A DNA stretch of 64,000 bases from positions 62,001-126,000 of the forward strand of contig JACPXZ010000010.1 in assembly GCA_016196225.1 (NCBI GenBank). The letters are read 5' to 3'. Origin of the DNA: Candidatus Peregrinibacteria bacterium (GTDB taxonomy: Bacteria > Patescibacteriota > Gracilibacteria > Peribacterales > Peribacteraceae). Both the position numbers and the translations under genes were made by a program. The stretch's first letter is position 1; every line of letters starts with the position of its first letter. This document shows, one piece after another, positions 12,246 through 62,844 of this stretch. The notes beneath the pieces are model-generated. The model did not search any database and had not been told where the DNA came from. It saw nothing but the letters and a program-made list of their open reading frames with translations.

Positions 12246-14189
12246 CTACTTCACCCTCCACACACTCTTCACATCCGGCAAGTCCAGAAAAGCGTCATAG
12301 AGATTGCTGAAATCTTCGAATGAATCCACTTTCACCCACAGGTGATGAATACCTTCACCCGAAGCCGTGGAATATGCTGTTAACTTGGTCAAATTCATCC
12401 CGCGATCGGCAATCACGCGGGTAATATCATGAACCATCCCCGGACGATCCACTGCATGAAGTTCCAATTGCACTACCGATTCTTCTTTTTGGAGTCGACG
12501 CACATTCGGCAAGATACCAAACCAGCAAAGCAATCGTATAAAGAACGTCGGGGGTGAAAAAATCAAATTCTGATAGGCGGACACCACCTCCTCAATGGGC
12601 AAAAAACCTGCCCCGAGATCTTTGAGAAGTTTATGTATGGTCTCCCGCCCGCATGCCATCGCCACCCGCTGATAGAGATGTGACACACCGAGAAGAACAT
12701 TCACAGGTAAAAGATGCTTGCGACATTCATTCTCCAGCATCATCCGCCCCTGACGAACCAATGTGTCTTCCGGAAGTAACGATGCTTTTTTTTGAAGAGC
12801 CGCCCGCGCCTCACTCGTTTTTGCATGACGATGCCACAGGATGTTTTTTTCTCCTTGGTCGGCAGGGCCTTCCTGCAAGATCAACTCCACCGTATCTCCA
12901 TCCGAAAGAACATGCGTGGCCTCGTACTCCATCCCCTCAATACGCAGAGCGATAACGCGCGGCAAAAAATCCGGACTGATGGCAAATGCCAGATCAATAC
13001 CGGTCGCCCCTTGCGGAAGAGACAAAATATCCCCCGCTGGGGTAAAAACGGATATGCGATCCTTAAGGACTCCCTCTTTCAGTTCATGGAGATACTCCTC
13101 CGGTTCGTAATACCGCTTATGGAGAACTCGAAGAGCAGAGTACAAATCATTTTTTTTATCGTTCACCCATGACGAAAACGACCGGATGGTCGCATAATCC
13201 CGCATTGTTATCGTTTGGATGCGCGCGCGCACCTGATGATTGTGATCAAGAAATACCGTCGTATGGAGAGCGCGATATCCATTCGGGAGCGGTTGACTGA
13301 CAAAGTCTCTCAGTGCACCGATACGGATGGGAAAGTTTTGATGTATATCTCCGAGGATCCGATAGCAATCAGCAATGCTTGCTCCTTCATCCTTCAGAAC
13401 AACGGAAATACTGTCCAATAAGGAAGTGTCCGAGAGGAGATCCGGATCTCTATTGCACTTCACAAATAATTCATAGTCCGTCATATGAGTGATCTTCACA
13501 TCCACCGAGAGGGATGCGACATCGGCGATTTTTTTGACGCAGGCCGCTCGCGCGGGCGCAAGGAGATCGCGCTCCGTACGCACCGCCTTGGACCATTGAT
13601 CCGCGATCGCACCAAAGGCGATGGGGAAACACCGTTCCTCAAAAATACGCTTCATCCACCAAAGCCCCGTCATTCGAGCAAAGGGAACGTAGATATCCAA
13701 TGTTTCGTGTGCGATGCGTTGTTGTTTATCGGGACGTAACGCCTCAATCGTCTCCACATTGTGCAATCGATCTGCGAGTTTGATAAAGATCACCCGGAGA
13801 TCGTCGCTGGCTGCGAGAAGCATTTTGCGTAACGATTGGATTTGGCGCTCCGATCGCCGCCCCGCATATCGCAATTTGGTCAATTTGGTTACGGCATCAA
13901 CAAGTTTTGCGATCTCCGGCCCAAACTCCTCCTCCACAGTCATCAGACTTTCCGCACCATCCTCAACGACATCATGGAGCAGGCCTGCAATGAGCGTATC
14001 GGATCCGCACGAAAGACGTGCAAGAGATAGTGCCGTCCGAATGGGATGGATGACAAACGCCTCTCCTGATTCGCGCTTTTGGCCAGCATGCCACTCGGTC
14101 ACTTTTTCGAGTGCCCGACGAACCCCCTCCTGTTCATCGGGAGGGAGATAGAGAACAGCATCCAATAGCTCCTCTGCAGCGTGTTGCAT
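12246..14189 (-). CDS. RelA/SpoT-family (p)ppGpp synthetase/hydrolase
   Basis: HD domain (LLHDVVEDG, LADRLHN), synthetase motif NGYRALHTTVF, TGS and C-terminal ACT regions. Confidence 0.9.
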   Translation of the reverse strand: MQHAAEELLDAVLYLPPDEQEGVRRALEKVTEWHAGQKRESGEAFVIHPIRTALSLARLSCGSDTLIAGLLHDVVEDGAESLMTVEEEFGPEIAKLVDAVTKLTKLRYAGRRSERQIQSLRKMLLAASDDLRVIFIKLADRLHNVETIEALRPDKQQRIAHETLDIYVPFARMTGLWWMKRIFEERCFPIAFGAIADQWSKAVRTERDLLAPARAACVKKIADVASLSVDVKITHMTDYELFVKCNRDPDLLSDTSLLDSISVVLKDEGASIADCYRILGDIHQNFPIRIGALRDFVSQPLPNGYRALHTTVFLDHNHQVRARIQTITMRDYATIRSFSSWVNDKKNDLYSALRVLHKRYYEPEEYLHELKEGVLKDRISVFTPAGDILSLPQGATGIDLAFAISPDFLPRVIALRIEGMEYEATHVLSDGDTVELILQEGPADQGEKNILWHRHAKTSEARAALQKKASLLPEDTLVRQGRMMLENECRKHLLPVNVLLGVSHLYQRVAMACGRETIHKLLKDLGAGFLPIEEVVSAYQNLIFSPPTFFIRLLCWFGILPNVRRLQKEESVVQLELHAVDRPGMVHDITRVIADRGMNLTKLTAYSTASGEGIHHLWVKVDSFEDFSNLYDAFLDLPDVKSVWRVK

Positions 14190-14435: not shown

Positions 14436-17400
14436 ATGTTCGATCCCGTCAACCCAAATCAGCGGCTCCCGGAGTTAGAAGAAGGGATCCTCCAATATTG
14501 GCGCGAAGAAGACATTTTTAAACGAAGCGTGCATCAACGACGAGCGGCATTTGATGATCCCCTTATGGGACGCGCAGGCAGAGAAGGGTCGACCTTTACC
14601 TTCTACGACGGCCCCCCCTTTGCTACCGGCCTCCCTCATTACGGACATCTCCTTGCCGGGACCATTAAGGATGTCATCCCCCGATATCACACCATGCGTG
14701 GCAAATATATCGAACGCCGATTTGGGTGGGATTGCCACGGACTCCCGATCGAAAATCTTATCGAAAAAGAACATAACATTCAGAATAAGCGCGCCATCGA
14801 AGAGATGGGCATTGATACATTTAATGCGCTCTGCCGTAGCGCAGTCCTCCGGTATACCAAAGATTGGCGGACGGTGGTGGAACGCATGGGACGGTGGGTG
14901 GATATGGACTTCGATTATCGGACGATGGATCCCGATTATATGGAAAGTATGTGGTGGGCATTCGCAAAACTCTGGGACAAAAAATTGATTTACGAAGGCC
15001 ACAAACCCATGCATATTTGCCCGAGGTGTGTGACACCTTTGAGTAACTTTGAGGTAACACAAGGATATAAGGACATCACGGATCAATCTGTAACCGTAAA
15101 ATTCGCCCTCACCGATAAATCAGATACCTATCTCCTCGCATGGACAACGACACCGTGGACATTACCAGGGAATCTATTCTTAGCCGTGGGACAAGACATT
15201 GAATACGTGCAATTCCAGATTCATGGAGATGACGCGACCTACATTGCTTCAGCATCCTTCGTAGAACATCTCAAACAGGAGACTCGCAATATCAAACGTA
15301 TCAAAACAGACTCTCTCCTTCGTCTCACCTACCACCCTCTCTTCCCCTATTTTGCCGATGAATACAAAAACGCCTTCCGGGTTGTTGCAGGAGACTTTGT
15401 CACCACCGATGAAGGGACCGGCATTGTTCATATTGCTCCCGGTTTTGGAGAAGATGATTTTGAAATATGGGAAAAAGAAACGACTGCCCCTCTCCCTAAC
15501 CCTCCCCCGCGGGGGGAGGGAACAATGCTCCTCCAACATGTCACCATGGAGGGAAAATTCACGGATCAAGTAAAGGACTTTGCCGGTTTGGATGTGAAAC
15601 CAAAGAATGATCCATCCAAAACCGATAAAAAGATTGCGGGGTGGTTAGAAAAAAATGGAAAACTCTTTGCACAAGAATCCTACCGTCATAGTTATCCTCA
15701 TTGCTGGCGCTGCGACTCCCCCCTCCTTAATTACGCCACGAGTTCATGGTTTGTCAGCGTCGAAAAAATAAAAGACAAGATGCTTCTCAATAATGAAAAA
15801 ACTTCGTGGGTCCCCTCCCATATCCGCGACGGACGCTTTGGCAAGTGGCTGGAGAACGCGCGGGATTGGGCCATCAGTCGCAACCGTTATTGGGGAACGC
15901 CGATCCCCATCTGGAAACAAAAAGAAACTATCGAAGTGATCGGCAGTCGGGATGATCTTATGCAGCACTGCAAGATGCGCTTCACGAAAGTAACTGCAGT
16001 ACGACATGGGGAGAGCAAAGGGAATATCATCCCCATTTATCAGGGACAAGTCCCCGGGACAGATCTCACGGATCGGGGCAAAGAACAGGCAAAAGCAGCG
16101 GGAATCTTCCTCAAAAATCAGAATGTGGCACGCATTTTTTGTTCCCCACTTGCCCGCACTCAGCAAACGGCCCGCATCATCGCAAAAATCACGGGTGCCG
16201 AGATCGTTGTTGATGAACGCCTGCGCGAAGTCTTCTTTGGAGACTACGAAGGAAAAACCATTGATTTTAGCGATTTAAAAATCGTGAAAGAGCGCCGCGC
16301 GAAAAAACTTGAAGACCGGCGTCCCGAAAGTGTTTACCATTTTGCAGGAATGGAATCGTGGGCAGAGGTACAAAAACGTGTTGAAGAGTTCCTCCAAGAA
16401 ATTCTCCCCCACCATCGCAGTAATCATATCGTCATCGTCACCCATGCGGATCCGATCCAAAGTACCCGCCACTTCTTTACCCATGAAGATCCCATCAAGC
16501 TCTCCCATCAACCCTATCCGACCTATGCCACGCCAGAAACTTTCTATTGGGATCACCATGCCGAAGCCCAAATGGATCTCCATAACGATCGTGTCGATGA
16601 CGTCCTCTGGCAGGGATCCCATGATCCCTCATCCGTTGATCTCACCATTGTCCGCCACGGTGAAACCGACTGGAACAAAGAAGAGCGGTCGCAAGGATGG
16701 ACCGATACCCCTCTCAATGCCACCGGAAAAAGGCAGGTGCTTGCATGCGCGAAGAAGCTCAAAAAAAAGAAGTTCGATTTCATCCTCTCCTCCGATCTCA
16801 CGCGCGCGATCCAAACCGCAGAGATCCTTGCCAAAGAACTGAATGTCCCGCATATCGGCTCATGGGAAATGGTACGGGAACGTAATACGGGTGACTGGAA
16901 TGGGAAAAAAGTGGATCAAATCCTCAAAGAACACCCCGGGATTTCGGAGGCGGTTCGTTCTACAACACTGCACCCGGAAACTCCCCCAAATGGCGAATCT
17001 CTTTCGCAACTTTTTGCACGTGCCCTCCACGCCTGTGAGCGCATTCTCAAAGAATTCCCCGGTAAACGCGTGCTCCTTGTCTCCCATAGCGGCATGACGC
17101 GGACGTTGCAGGCCATTATTGAAAATCTCACCTACCGCGAGGCCGCAACTTTCGAACCCAAAAACGGCGAAGCAATATTCCTTACCCTCAACCCATTCTT
17201 CAGGCGCATTCCCGAGATCCTCGACTGCTGGTTCGAAAGCGGATCGATGCCCTACGCCCAGCAACATTTTCCTTTTGAGATGAAGCATACGACAACCATT
17301 CCCAATGGCTTCCCTGCGGATTTTATCGCCGAGGGGGTAGATCAAACCCGTACTTGGTTTTATACCCTCATGATCCTCTCTACCGCACTCTTCAATGAGA

Positions 17401-18755
17401 CCCCGTTCAAAAACGTAGTGGTGAACGGGATCGTCCTTGCAGAGGATGGGAAAAAAATGAGTAAACGACTTAAAAACTATCCGGACCCGATGGAAGTCGT
17501 ATCGCGTCATGGCGCTGATGCGGTTCGTTTTGCACTCATGCGTTCACCGGCCGTACGCGCAGAAGATCTCCGCTTCTCCGAACATCTCGTTGAAGAAACA
17601 GTCCGCTCCGTCCTCCTCCCGCTTTGGAATGCGTATAGCTTTTTTGTGACGTATGCAAATGCATGTCATTTTGAACCTGCAGAGATGCGCCATGCCTCCT
17701 CTCATCCTCTGGATCAATGGATCCATGCCGAGATCCAATCCCTCGTTAACCGCATGACGAAAGAATTAGACGGATATGATCTCTCCGCGACATGTTCGGA
17801 GCTCTTCGAAACGATCGATGCGCTCACCAACTGGTACATCCGCCTGTCCCGGAGACGCTTTGCCGGGAAGGATACTCCGGAAGAACGTCTCGCGGCTCTC
17901 CAAACACTCTACGACACTCTCCTCACCTTCTCTCAACTCCTTGCGCCATTGTGCCCTTTCATCACCGAAGCGATCTACCTCAATCTCGTGCCCGAAGACC
18001 ATGGATCGGTCCACCTTACCGACTGGCCGAGCTCTCGCGAGCTCACTCCGCACCAACATGCATTGATCCAAAAAAATCGGCTGATGCGCATCATCGTATC
18101 GCTCGGCAACACCGTTCGTGCGGCTGCCAATGTAAAACTTCGCCAACCTCTTCAAAAAGCCATCATCGCCGTCCCCCCATCCGACATTCTGCTCAGCGAG
18201 CAAGACAGAGCACTCCTCCTTGCCGAACTCAATGTCAAAGAGCTCGCATTCACCGATACTCCTCACCAACTTGCGGACGTCATCATGCAGGTTGATGCGC
18301 GGAAAGTCGGACCTCGCCTCGGCCCCCGCGTTCAGGACATCATCGCCGCCGGAAAACGCGGTGAATTCTCTATTGCAAAGGACGGGTCAATCCGGATCCT
18401 CGATGAGGTTCTTACTCCCGCCGAAGCCTCGATCAGCTACCGAGGCAAAGAAGGTCGAAACATTGCTGCTCATCACGGTATCGTCGTCTGTATCGATACC
18501 TTTATCTCGCAACAACTCAATAATGAAGGTCTGATACGAGATCTCATCCGGCTCATCCAGCGTCTCCGCAAAGAAGCAGGACTATCGCTCGCCGACCACA
18601 TCACGCTTTCTACTAAAGGGGCAGAGGACATCCTCAAAGAATTTATCGACCTCATCCTACGCGAAACGAATGCAACATTGGGAAAAAATAACGGAACGAT
18701 ATATACCGAAACCATCGGAGATCATACAGTGGTAATCCAATTTACCAAGACATAG
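14436..18755 (+). CDS. ileS: Isoleucyl-tRNA synthetase (eukaryote/archaea-like type) with two inserted histidine-phosphatase domains
   Basis: PPFATGLPHYGHLLAGTIKD (HIGH-type), KMSKRLKNYPDP, WGTPIPIW, DCWFESGSMPYAQ; two RHGE domains at residues about 523 and 740 lie between WGTPIPIW and DCWFESG in one 1439-aa ORF. Confidence 0.95.
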   Translation: MFDPVNPNQRLPELEEGILQYWREEDIFKRSVHQRRAAFDDPLMGRAGREGSTFTFYDGPPFATGLPHYGHLLAGTIKDVIPRYHTMRGKYIERRFGWDCHGLPIENLIEKEHNIQNKRAIEEMGIDTFNALCRSAVLRYTKDWRTVVERMGRWVDMDFDYRTMDPDYMESMWWAFAKLWDKKLIYEGHKPMHICPRCVTPLSNFEVTQGYKDITDQSVTVKFALTDKSDTYLLAWTTTPWTLPGNLFLAVGQDIEYVQFQIHGDDATYIASASFVEHLKQETRNIKRIKTDSLLRLTYHPLFPYFADEYKNAFRVVAGDFVTTDEGTGIVHIAPGFGEDDFEIWEKETTAPLPNPPPRGEGTMLLQHVTMEGKFTDQVKDFAGLDVKPKNDPSKTDKKIAGWLEKNGKLFAQESYRHSYPHCWRCDSPLLNYATSSWFVSVEKIKDKMLLNNEKTSWVPSHIRDGRFGKWLENARDWAISRNRYWGTPIPIWKQKETIEVIGSRDDLMQHCKMRFTKVTAVRHGESKGNIIPIYQGQVPGTDLTDRGKEQAKAAGIFLKNQNVARIFCSPLARTQQTARIIAKITGAEIVVDERLREVFFGDYEGKTIDFSDLKIVKERRAKKLEDRRPESVYHFAGMESWAEVQKRVEEFLQEILPHHRSNHIVIVTHADPIQSTRHFFTHEDPIKLSHQPYPTYATPETFYWDHHAEAQMDLHNDRVDDVLWQGSHDPSSVDLTIVRHGETDWNKEERSQGWTDTPLNATGKRQVLACAKKLKKKKFDFILSSDLTRAIQTAEILAKELNVPHIGSWEMVRERNTGDWNGKKVDQILKEHPGISEAVRSTTLHPETPPNGESLSQLFARALHACERILKEFPGKRVLLVSHSGMTRTLQAIIENLTYREAATFEPKNGEAIFLTLNPFFRRIPEILDCWFESGSMPYAQQHFPFEMKHTTTIPNGFPADFIAEGVDQTRTWFYTLMILSTALFNETPFKNVVVNGIVLAEDGKKMSKRLKNYPDPMEVVSRHGADAVRFALMRSPAVRAEDLRFSEHLVEETVRSVLLPLWNAYSFFVTYANACHFEPAEMRHASSHPLDQWIHAEIQSLVNRMTKELDGYDLSATCSELFETIDALTNWYIRLSRRRFAGKDTPEERLAALQTLYDTLLTFSQLLAPLCPFITEAIYLNLVPEDHGSVHLTDWPSSRELTPHQHALIQKNRLMRIIVSLGNTVRAAANVKLRQPLQKAIIAVPPSDILLSEQDRALLLAELNVKELAFTDTPHQLADVIMQVDARKVGPRLGPRVQDIIAAGKRGEFSIAKDGSIRILDEVLTPAEASISYRGKEGRNIAAHHGIVVCIDTFISQQLNNEGLIRDLIRLIQRLRKEAGLSLADHITLSTKGAEDILKEFIDLILRETNATLGKNNGTIYTETIGDHTVVIQFTKT
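15487..15523. repeat. Family P palindromic element inside ileS
   Basis: cccctctccctaaccctcccccgcggggggagggaac, encoding PLPNPPPRGEG; nearly identical to 59164..59199. Confidence 0.85.
15987..17190 (+). other. Tandem histidine-phosphatase (PGM-like) domain insertion in IleRS
   Basis: Domain 1: AVRHGESKGN...CSPLARTQQTA...VTHAD; domain 2: IVRHGETDWN...SSDLTRAIQTA...VSHSG. Confidence 0.92.
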
Positions 18756-58208: not shown

Positions 58209-59486
58209 ATGGCTCAAAAACCGCTCTACGAAGCACAGGCAAAGAAGCTCATTGATGAACAATGGGGGAAGATGCCGGGGAAACCGATTATCCAATACGT
58301 GAGTGTGATCCCCCACGCCCCCCTCCCTACGCCCCCCTCCTTTATCCTCCCCCACGGGGGGAGGTGCCCCGTCGGGGGGAAATATGTAGCGAAGGTGGAT
58401 GAACTCTTTGGCAAACGCGGGAAGCTTGGGTATGTAAAAATTGCAAAAGATTTTGCGGAAGCAAAAGCATGGATCCAGAAATTGCGAAGAAAGGAAGTAA
58501 AGATCGGCGAGCGTCGCGGAGTCCTCAATCACTTTTTGATCGAACCGTTTATCGAACATAAAAAAGAATATTACGTTTCCTGTGTGGGAGAACGCGAGAC
58601 CGATGTGATCTTTTTCTCTGTAGCAGGGGGTATCGATATTGAGGAGCAGGGCGACTCTGTCCAAAGGATCAAAGTCCCACTCGATCAAGAACCAGATCTA
58701 AAAAGCATTCCCAAAGAACTCCGTGATACCGTGCTCGGACTTTTCACGCTCTTTCGCAAACTTGACCTTGGATTTTTAGAAATCAATCCCCTCGTATTCG
58801 AAGACGGAAAATCCTATCTCCTCGATGCCGTGGTCCGCGTCGACACGGCAGCCGCTTTCCGGGAGCAGCGCACTTGGGGGACATGGGAGATCCCCGATGG
58901 GTTTGGGAACGCACCCGTCGAAGAAGAACTGACTATCCGTGATCTTGATGCCAAGACCGGGAGTTCTCTTAAATTTGTATTACTGAATCCCCACGGTCGC
59001 ATCTGGACGATGGTCGCGGGAGGAGGCGCCTCCATTATTTATGCCGATGCTATTACCAATCAAGTCGATGCAAAGGAGCTTGCGAATTATGGGGAATGGT
59101 CAGGAAATCCCTCCACTGATGAAATGGAAGAATATACGAAGAATATTTTGAAATTGATGACTTCCCCTCTCCCTGGCCCTCCCCCGCGGGGGGAGGGAAA
59201 AAAGTGGAAGGCGCTTATTATTGGCGGCGGCATTGCCAACTTTACCGATATTGCCAAAACGTTTGCCGGAGTCATCAAAGCATTACGGATATATGCAAAA
59301 AAACTCAAGAATGTGCATATCTTTGTCCGTCGTGCGGGACCCAATGACAAAAAGGGGCTCACGATGCTTCAACAGGCATGCGATGAAATGGGGATCCCCT
59401 GCGTTACGTATGGCGCACAGCGGCCGATGACGGAGGTGGTGGGAATTGCTATCAAAGATTTGAATATTAAAAAAAGGAACTCATGA
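58209..59486 (+). CDS. aclB: ATP-citrate lyase, ATP-grasp (beta-like) subunit
   Basis: KYVAKVDELFGKRGKLGYV, KLDLGFLEINPLVFE, VAGGGASIIYADAITN, ANYGEWSGNPSTDEMEEYTKNIL; contiguous with the ACL large subunit. Confidence 0.88.
   Translation: MAQKPLYEAQAKKLIDEQWGKMPGKPIIQYVSVIPHAPLPTPPSFILPHGGRCPVGGKYVAKVDELFGKRGKLGYVKIAKDFAEAKAWIQKLRRKEVKIGERRGVLNHFLIEPFIEHKKEYYVSCVGERETDVIFFSVAGGIDIEEQGDSVQRIKVPLDQEPDLKSIPKELRDTVLGLFTLFRKLDLGFLEINPLVFEDGKSYLLDAVVRVDTAAAFREQRTWGTWEIPDGFGNAPVEEELTIRDLDAKTGSSLKFVLLNPHGRIWTMVAGGGASIIYADAITNQVDAKELANYGEWSGNPSTDEMEEYTKNILKLMTSPLPGPPPRGEGKKWKALIIGGGIANFTDIAKTFAGVIKALRIYAKKLKNVHIFVRRAGPNDKKGLTMLQQACDEMGIPCVTYGAQRPMTEVVGIAIKDLNIKKRNS
58313..58381. repeat. Family P palindromic element in the 5' part of aclB
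   Basis: cgcccccctccctacgcccccctcctttatcctcccccacggggggaggtgccccgtcggggggaaa, encoding APLPTPPSFILPHGGRCPVGGK. Confidence 0.75.
59164..59199. repeat. Family P palindromic element in the 3' part of aclB
   Basis: cccctctccctggccctcccccgcggggggagggaa, encoding PLPGPPPRGEG. Confidence 0.85.
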
Positions 59487-61758: not shown

Positions 61759-62844
61759 ATGAATCTCCAAACAATGCTCACATGGTCGTGGCTTAACTTC
61801 CTCACCAAAAAACGTTATGACGTTTTATTGAAGAAGTACGGTTCACTGGATCTCGCTCTCCCCCACCTCACTCCAGAGCTCCTGACCGCTCTTGGTTGCC
61901 GGGAAGAGACCCTCTTCATTATTCTCAATAGATTGGAAGAGTTTGACGCCGAAGCATATCAAAAAGAACTTGAGCGGCGGGGAATCCGTTGTATCGGTTT
62001 TGACGATCCCGACTATCCTTCGGCATTGCAAAAAATTCCCGATCCACCCATCTTCCTCTACGTTAAAGGAGACCTGTCTATTCTTCAGCAACCCTGCATC
62101 GGACTCGTCGGCACACGGGCGATGAGTCCCTATGGCAAACGTATTACCGAACACTTTGTCCCGGCCTTTGTTCATGCCCAGATGACAACGGTGAGCGGTC
62201 TTGCCGAAGGGATTGATGCAACTGTCGCACACGAAACGATCTGCATCGAAGGAAAAACCGTCGCCATCCTCGGCTATGGCCCCTCTCAAATCCTTCCACG
62301 AAGCAACACCCGCCTTGCACAAGAGATTATCCAATCCGGGGGGCTCATCCTGAGCGAATTCCCCATCGACATCCCTCCGGGCAAACACACCTTCCCGGCT
62401 CGTAATCGCATTATCGCAGGACTTTGTCTTGGCACAGTAATACTCGAAGCACCAGAGAAAAGCGGGGCTCTCATTACGGCAGAACTTGCTCTCGACTACG
62501 GACGTGACGTGTTTGCTGTTCCTGGAAATATCTTTGATCCAAACTTCGCAGGATGTCACAAGATTATTGGGAGCGGCCAGGCAAAGTTGGTCTCAACACC
62601 GGAAGAGGTTTTGGAAGAACTTGGGATTGTGTCTCCTACGACAACAACGCACATTTCTCTCTACAATCCTCAAAACACTATAGAATCAACAATTCTTTCT
62701 ACACTTACCACGATGCCCCAACCGCTCGATGATATCGTTCAAAAAGCGCAAATCTCTGCTGCAGAGACGAATGCCACACTGACGATGATGGAACTCGCAG
62801 GGGTCGTAAAAGATACGGGAGGGGGACAATGGGTCAAGACTTAG
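61759..62844 (+). CDS. dprA: DNA processing protein DprA
   Basis: GLVGTRAMSPYGKRITE, TVSGLAEGIDATVAHETI, SEFPIDIPPGKHTFPARNRIIAGL, ALDYGRDVFAVPGN. Confidence 0.93.
   Translation: MNLQTMLTWSWLNFLTKKRYDVLLKKYGSLDLALPHLTPELLTALGCREETLFIILNRLEEFDAEAYQKELERRGIRCIGFDDPDYPSALQKIPDPPIFLYVKGDLSILQQPCIGLVGTRAMSPYGKRITEHFVPAFVHAQMTTVSGLAEGIDATVAHETICIEGKTVAILGYGPSQILPRSNTRLAQEIIQSGGLILSEFPIDIPPGKHTFPARNRIIAGLCLGTVILEAPEKSGALITAELALDYGRDVFAVPGNIFDPNFAGCHKIIGSGQAKLVSTPEEVLEELGIVSPTTTTHISLYNPQNTIESTILSTLTTMPQPLDDIVQKAQISAAETNATLTMMELAGVVKDTGGGQWVKT

Follow-up and report, generated by a model that had tools for sequence, protein, structure and literature searches.

The 64,000-nucleotide window considered here, positions 62,001 to 126,000 of contig JACPXZ010000010.1 from a Candidatus Peregrinibacteria bacterium (family Peribacteraceae; assembly GCA_016196225.1), contains an ileS-like gene whose product is an isoleucyl-tRNA synthetase (IleRS) with two histidine-phosphatase domains inserted in its CP2 segment (Table 1). 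The 1439-aa open reading frame scores 855 bits against the TIGR00392 ileS model (cut-off 621.4), which places it within the IleRS family. Pfam finds tRNA-synt_1 in two stretches, Anticodon_1 and DUF5915, together with His_Phos_1 at 293 bits summed over two stretches. The synthetase set is full: a HIGH-like motif (HYGH, residue 68), the editing motifs, YWGTPIPIW (485), DCWFESG (930), a KMSKS-type motif (KMSKR, 1007) and Anticodon_1. No second ileS-like gene was found in the source genome, which is 97.7% complete, so this IleRS must serve the cell unless another sits in the missing few percent.

The two inserted domains, designated HP1 and HP2, lie between YWGTPIPIW and DCWFESG, where plain relatives have just some tens of residues, and a DLHNDRVDD stretch of CP2 is kept between them. 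Each has the RHG nucleophile, second Arg, Glu acid and late His of PF00300 branch 1: H524/R574/E598/H670 in HP1 and H741/R790/E815/H884 in HP2. An earlier, sequence-only reading of this DNA had described one IleRS frame with all landmarks and two complete phosphatase domains at a place where the enzyme normally has a short segment, and all of this is borne out by the profile matches, the motif positions and the plain relatives. Structure prediction, a check proposed by the same reading, agrees with it: the AlphaFold model of residues 1-1081 has a mean pLDDT of 89 and a pTM of 0.88, both inserts are confident folds (mostly pLDDT ~95), and the model's best PDB match is yeast IleRS with tRNA-Ile (8wnd). 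The nearest solved relatives of HP1 and HP2 by sequence are PhoE/PspA/CobC-type phosphatases (1h2e, 4ij5, TIGR03162), which share the catalytic set; TIGR03162 (CobC) gives 205-210 bits for the protein or insert with both domains taken together, against a single-domain cut-off of 162.9. Those enzymes are free-standing, unlike the inserts, and their substrate class is not transferable. A tandem duplication of one phosphatase is not supported, as HP1 and HP2 are 30% identical and fall mostly in different parts of the phosphatase tree.

Table 1. Features of the ileS-like gene, in window coordinates
Feature	Position	Strand	Basis
ileS-like gene, IleRS with two inserted histidine-phosphatase domains, 1439 aa	14436..18755	+	Open reading frame; TIGR00392; AlphaFold model
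CP1 editing-domain motifs (LAWTTTPWTLPGN, GTGIVHIAPGFGEDD), intact	15135..15458	+	Sequence
5' insert flank: YWGTPIPIW and VIGSRDDL (CP2 start)	15888..15959	+	Alignment to plain IleRS L033
HP1, first His_Phos_1 domain (site 513), about residues 517-690	15984..16505	+	Pfam, sequence
CP2 segment remnant (AQMDLHNDRVDDVLW) between HP1 and HP2	16566..16610	+	Compare DLHKPYIDDITF of plain IleRS
HP2, second His_Phos_1 domain (site 537), about residues 735-916	16638..17183	+	Pfam, sequence
3' insert flank: RRIPEIL and DCWFESG, re-entry into the synthetase catalytic fold	17202..17243	+	Sequence
KMSKR motif; His_Phos follows KMSKR in relatives (site 703)	17454..17468	+	Sequence, alignment

An assembly chimera or frameshift, a danger that the sequence-only reading had itself raised, is excluded: the gene is interior to a 130-kb contig, and the CP2-HP1-HP2 stretch is matched in 70 of 74 genomes of the same family, across all 40 genera and in one-contig genomes as well. 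Composition is also flat across the insert junctions. The same matches supply the second genome with this architecture that the earlier reading had called for. HP1 is found in all 70 matching genomes (two matches are partial), and about nine of them lack HP2 and have HP1 only. One family member (G213, family f1, contig C5) has a 1672-aa IleRS frame with what seems to be one further copy of HP2.

The inserts are under strong constraint. The R-H-G, second Arg, Glu and late His are kept in 110 of 112 inserted His_Phos domains, so that the loss of active-site residues in homologues, which would have told against the sequence-only reading, is not seen. Of 160 alignment columns, these catalytic ones rank among the best conserved, over a total tree length of 65.9 substitutions per column. 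Synonymous divergence in the insert (pS 0.70-0.89) is near saturation, which precludes a clean dN/dS, and constraint was read from comparison with nonsynonymous divergence (pN 0.15-0.30). The insert evolves at about the rate of the synthetase core, or up to a few times faster. This pattern bears on the idea that HP1 and HP2 enlarge CP2 for structure or tRNA binding, with catalysis no longer relevant. In class Ia synthetases CP2 is a recognised module (PMC7229842), and the AlphaFold model is compact, both of which suit such an expansion, but the catalytic residues are the best conserved columns, and the idea is judged highly improbable.

How widespread is the arrangement? With a plain IleRS of 1006 aa (L033) as the reference, 95 aligned IleRS proteins of the class and phylum have in-frame inserts of at least 60 aa at sites 232, 276 and 317 in CP1, at 513 and 537 in CP2, at 569 (between DCWFESG and ADFIAEG) and at 703 (after KMSKR). 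Nearly all inserts are His_Phos_1, hosted at four of these sites (513, 537, 569 and 703) with no loss of the active site. Site 513 is occupied in many families within and beyond the class, and in at least 30 of 261 sampled genomes from other classes; site 703 is occupied in families f6, f13 and f18, and f5 has both. The IleRS of one genome (G147) has three His_Phos domains. The suggestion that other IleRS might carry His_Phos_1 in the same interval has thus been amply confirmed. Rarer guests, checked with Pfam, are Nudix, GNAT (in L074 and L087), Ser_hydrolase and an IS200-like Y1_Tnp; a CYTH guest suspected by eye in L134 was not confirmed. The homologous CP2 site of valyl-tRNA synthetase (ValRS) holds one or two His_Phos domains in four genomes (L173, L174, L175 and L176). 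The phenomenon is therefore broader than the single locus first described, extending to four IleRS sites, to ValRS and to further guests.

Several individual proteins stand out in this survey. In G603 (L139) a Ser_hydrolase, a Nudix and a His_Phos domain occur together in one 1544-aa IleRS, and in G575 (L177) a Nudix domain is inserted before the editing domain of leucyl-tRNA synthetase (LeuRS). In L082 and L084 (G176 and G029) an IS200/REP-type Y1_Tnp with its HUH motif lies at site 317, in frame inside the IleRS editing domain.

In a sample of public genomes, at least 17 loci (L193-L209), among the best 80 of 574 relatives, match both the phosphatase and its flanks. The informatively named ones are Peregrinibacteria, Yanofskybacteria, Nomurabacteria, Paceibacterota and Patescibacteria, plus one contig of a Spirochaetia metagenome-assembled genome; the other non-CPR loci examined encode plain IleRS. 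The Spirochaetia-labelled contig (L197, QYPD01000003.1) encodes an IleRS with His_Phos that groups with Patescibacteria (CPR), and it may be misbinned or transferred. Hosting small enzyme domains, His_Phos foremost, is a phylum-wide habit of Patescibacteria IleRS.

The choice of host is narrow. Among 72 His_Phos domains in 34 genomes, 34 are in IleRS, 5 in ValRS and the other 33 in frames no longer than 282 aa, and none of the 72 matches falls in a long gene other than IleRS or ValRS. The choice of guest is narrow too: Nudix usually outnumbers His_Phos in the same genomes yet is seldom a guest, so genome abundance does not account for guest choice. Host exclusivity and guest specificity are the chief argument for a functional coupling between phosphatase and synthetase. 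The coupled phosphatase proposed by the sequence-only reading is accordingly plausible, given the exclusive host range and the conservation, though these do not settle it. Histidine phosphatases as a superfamily act on phosphomonoesters, and the aminoacyl-AMP that the reading had offered as one candidate substrate is for this reason unlikely.

The history of the inserts can be read in two ways. On the IleRS core tree the presence of His_Phos requires a minimum of 15 changes, 13 of them on well-supported branches, and its site 28 changes. In the phosphatase tree most IleRS copies cluster together, and approximately unbiased (AU) tests do not reject a single origin for all IleRS His_Phos (p 0.77) or for all site-513 domains (p 0.44). 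These tests, being compatible with one origin, weaken a description as independent captures from free-standing phosphatases. The trees would fit either many captures or one IleRS-dedicated lineage that has been gained, lost, transferred and moved between sites. Turnover of the other guests is fast: the congeneric genomes G579 (L273) and G594 (L274/L281) have IleRS cores that are ~93% identical, and the site-232 hairpin that precedes LAWTTTPWTLP holds Nudix in one and an unrelated, unclassified domain in the other, while the same hairpin is empty in sister genomes (the compared loci include L275/L282 of G622, L280 and L276).

Could the phosphatase be a passenger? An ordinary housekeeping enzyme might occupy an insertion-tolerant loop in an essential gene, work independently of aminoacylation, and be retained since the cell often has no other copy. 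This is the strongest rival to coupling. It gains from the acceptance of several unrelated enzymes by IleRS loops, from the hairpin guests of G579 and G594, and from the 13 of the 34 genomes in which the IleRS and ValRS copies are the sole His_Phos. If it were a passenger, however, it should turn up in further permissive hosts as well, and no such host appears among the 72 domains; guests should track genome abundance, which Nudix does not; and the phosphatase recurs at several IleRS sites and at the homologous ValRS site. With this balance, an uncoupled passenger is possible but rather unlikely.

Two further roles would give the phosphatase a more specific task. It might act as a protein phosphatase in cis: a HipA-type kinase toxin would inhibit the synthetase by phosphorylating it, for example near KMSKS, and the insert would undo this. 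The superfamily does include protein phosphatases, and the insert sites fall in that half of IleRS which contains the catalytic and editing regions. Against this, a kinase search limited to HipA_C found it in 0 of 36 genomes while four control genomes were positive. A HipA-antidote role is not supported, and the proposal is highly improbable. A moonlighting glycolytic phosphoglycerate mutase would share the superfamily, and iPGM is absent from some genomes, the source genome included. The distribution of iPGM nevertheless does not fit: many genomes have it alongside IleRS-His_Phos, a separate His_Phos of 232-242 aa is present in the source genome and in other relatives without iPGM, and relatives with iPGM but no separate His_Phos still keep the IleRS copy. 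A glycolytic role is barely credible.

The explanation favoured here, held with about even confidence as a whole, is that the window gene encodes a functional isoleucyl-tRNA synthetase whose CP2 contains two phosphatases, both competent in catalysis, tethered to the synthetase and selected with it. From the survey, hairpin loops of CP2, CP1 and the region after KMSKR/KMSKS would accept small domains in frame, and some guests, once inserted, would be retained by selection. The phosphatase would be retained for a house-cleaning phosphomonoesterase activity exerted at the place where the synthetase operates. Its substrate may be a phosphorylated small molecule made or met by the synthetase, such as a by-product of nucleotide type or an inhibitor that is phosphorylated or resembles a nucleotide; this substrate class is a guess, and a doubtful one. 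The other guests (Nudix, GNAT and Ser_hydrolase) are likewise enzymes with recognisable catalytic motifs. More tentatively, and with a little less than even confidence, a dedicated and mobile phosphatase lineage in IleRS and ValRS could be coupled to aminoacylation as a built-in module of a new kind for quality control or by-product clearing, with the CP1, CP2 and post-KMSKS loops as docking sites that exchange enzyme modules (His_Phos, Nudix, GNAT and serine hydrolase).

Three points weigh against a tethered, selected phosphatase. Many Patescibacteria have a plain IleRS and some genomes are without any His_Phos, so the function is dispensable. The turnover of guests in the hairpin loop of close relatives shows that insertion alone needs no functional link. 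Finally, an RHG mutant of mycobacterial MutT1 retained the measured phosphatase activity (PMC11784022), so an intact RHG motif is no proof of a role.

Recurrent in-frame insertion into class I synthetases is already known from the CAAD and IleRS-GNAT proteins. For IleRS with a histidine phosphatase the sequence-only reading knew of no precedent, and none linking the two was found in open-access papers, a scope that takes in few subscription papers. The CAAD domain occurs in cyanobacterial class I synthetases (ValRS, IleRS, LeuRS, GluRS and others; PMC4893482) and offers the closest parallel in form: a foreign domain recurrently placed in frame at internal positions, with several independent recruitments and alternative sites, within one phylum (PMC4893482). 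The Patescibacteria guest, in contrast, is an intact enzyme, lies inside CP2 or after KMSKS and belongs to another phylum; these proteins have His_Phos_1 and not the CURT1/CAAD membrane domain of the CAAD type. NCBIfam NF040702 (ileS_w_GNAT) also describes an IleRS with a fused small enzyme domain, but the window protein lacks GNAT and, at 263.7 bits, stays below the cut-off of 1999, which places it outside that family. The CP1 editing domain of IleRS, ValRS and LeuRS is likewise a hydrolytic module in the synthetase Rossmann fold, and its insertion point varies between LeuRS lineages (PMC7229842). It differs from HP1 and HP2 in fold and chemistry, and the canonical one is still present in the window protein, with intact motifs. 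Mycobacterial MutT1 (Nudix plus RHG) joins a histidine phosphatase to a nucleotide-related enzyme, as IleRS-His_Phos does, but is not a synthetase, and its RHG domain is not the measured phosphatase (PMC11784022).

Two other observations concern the surroundings of the gene. A RelA/SpoT-like gene (12246-14189, minus strand) lies divergently beside ileS, and this neighbourhood recurs in several family genomes. A C-rich palindromic dispersed repeat (CCTCTCCCTAACCCTCCCCCGCGGGGGGAGGG) has an in-frame copy at 15489-15521, encoding IleRS residues 352-362 (PLPNPPPRGEG) in an editing-domain loop modelled as disordered (pLDDT 42). A further window copy is at 59166-59185, and the genome has 22 matches, against 1 for the reversed control.

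Few enzymes are as conserved as the aminoacyl-tRNA synthetases, and here one of them is widely joined, at several of its sites, to a phosphatase whose catalytic residues are intact. Often a small genome has no phosphatase of this kind outside IleRS and ValRS, which suggests a so far undescribed link between tRNA charging and phosphate removal. If the two are coupled, this would point to a not yet recognised phosphorylated by-product or inhibitor of isoleucine charging. Even if they are not, Patescibacteria IleRS offers a natural series of domain insertions that work, in which sister species differ in whether a site is empty or filled, and is useful for learning how proteins take in new domains.
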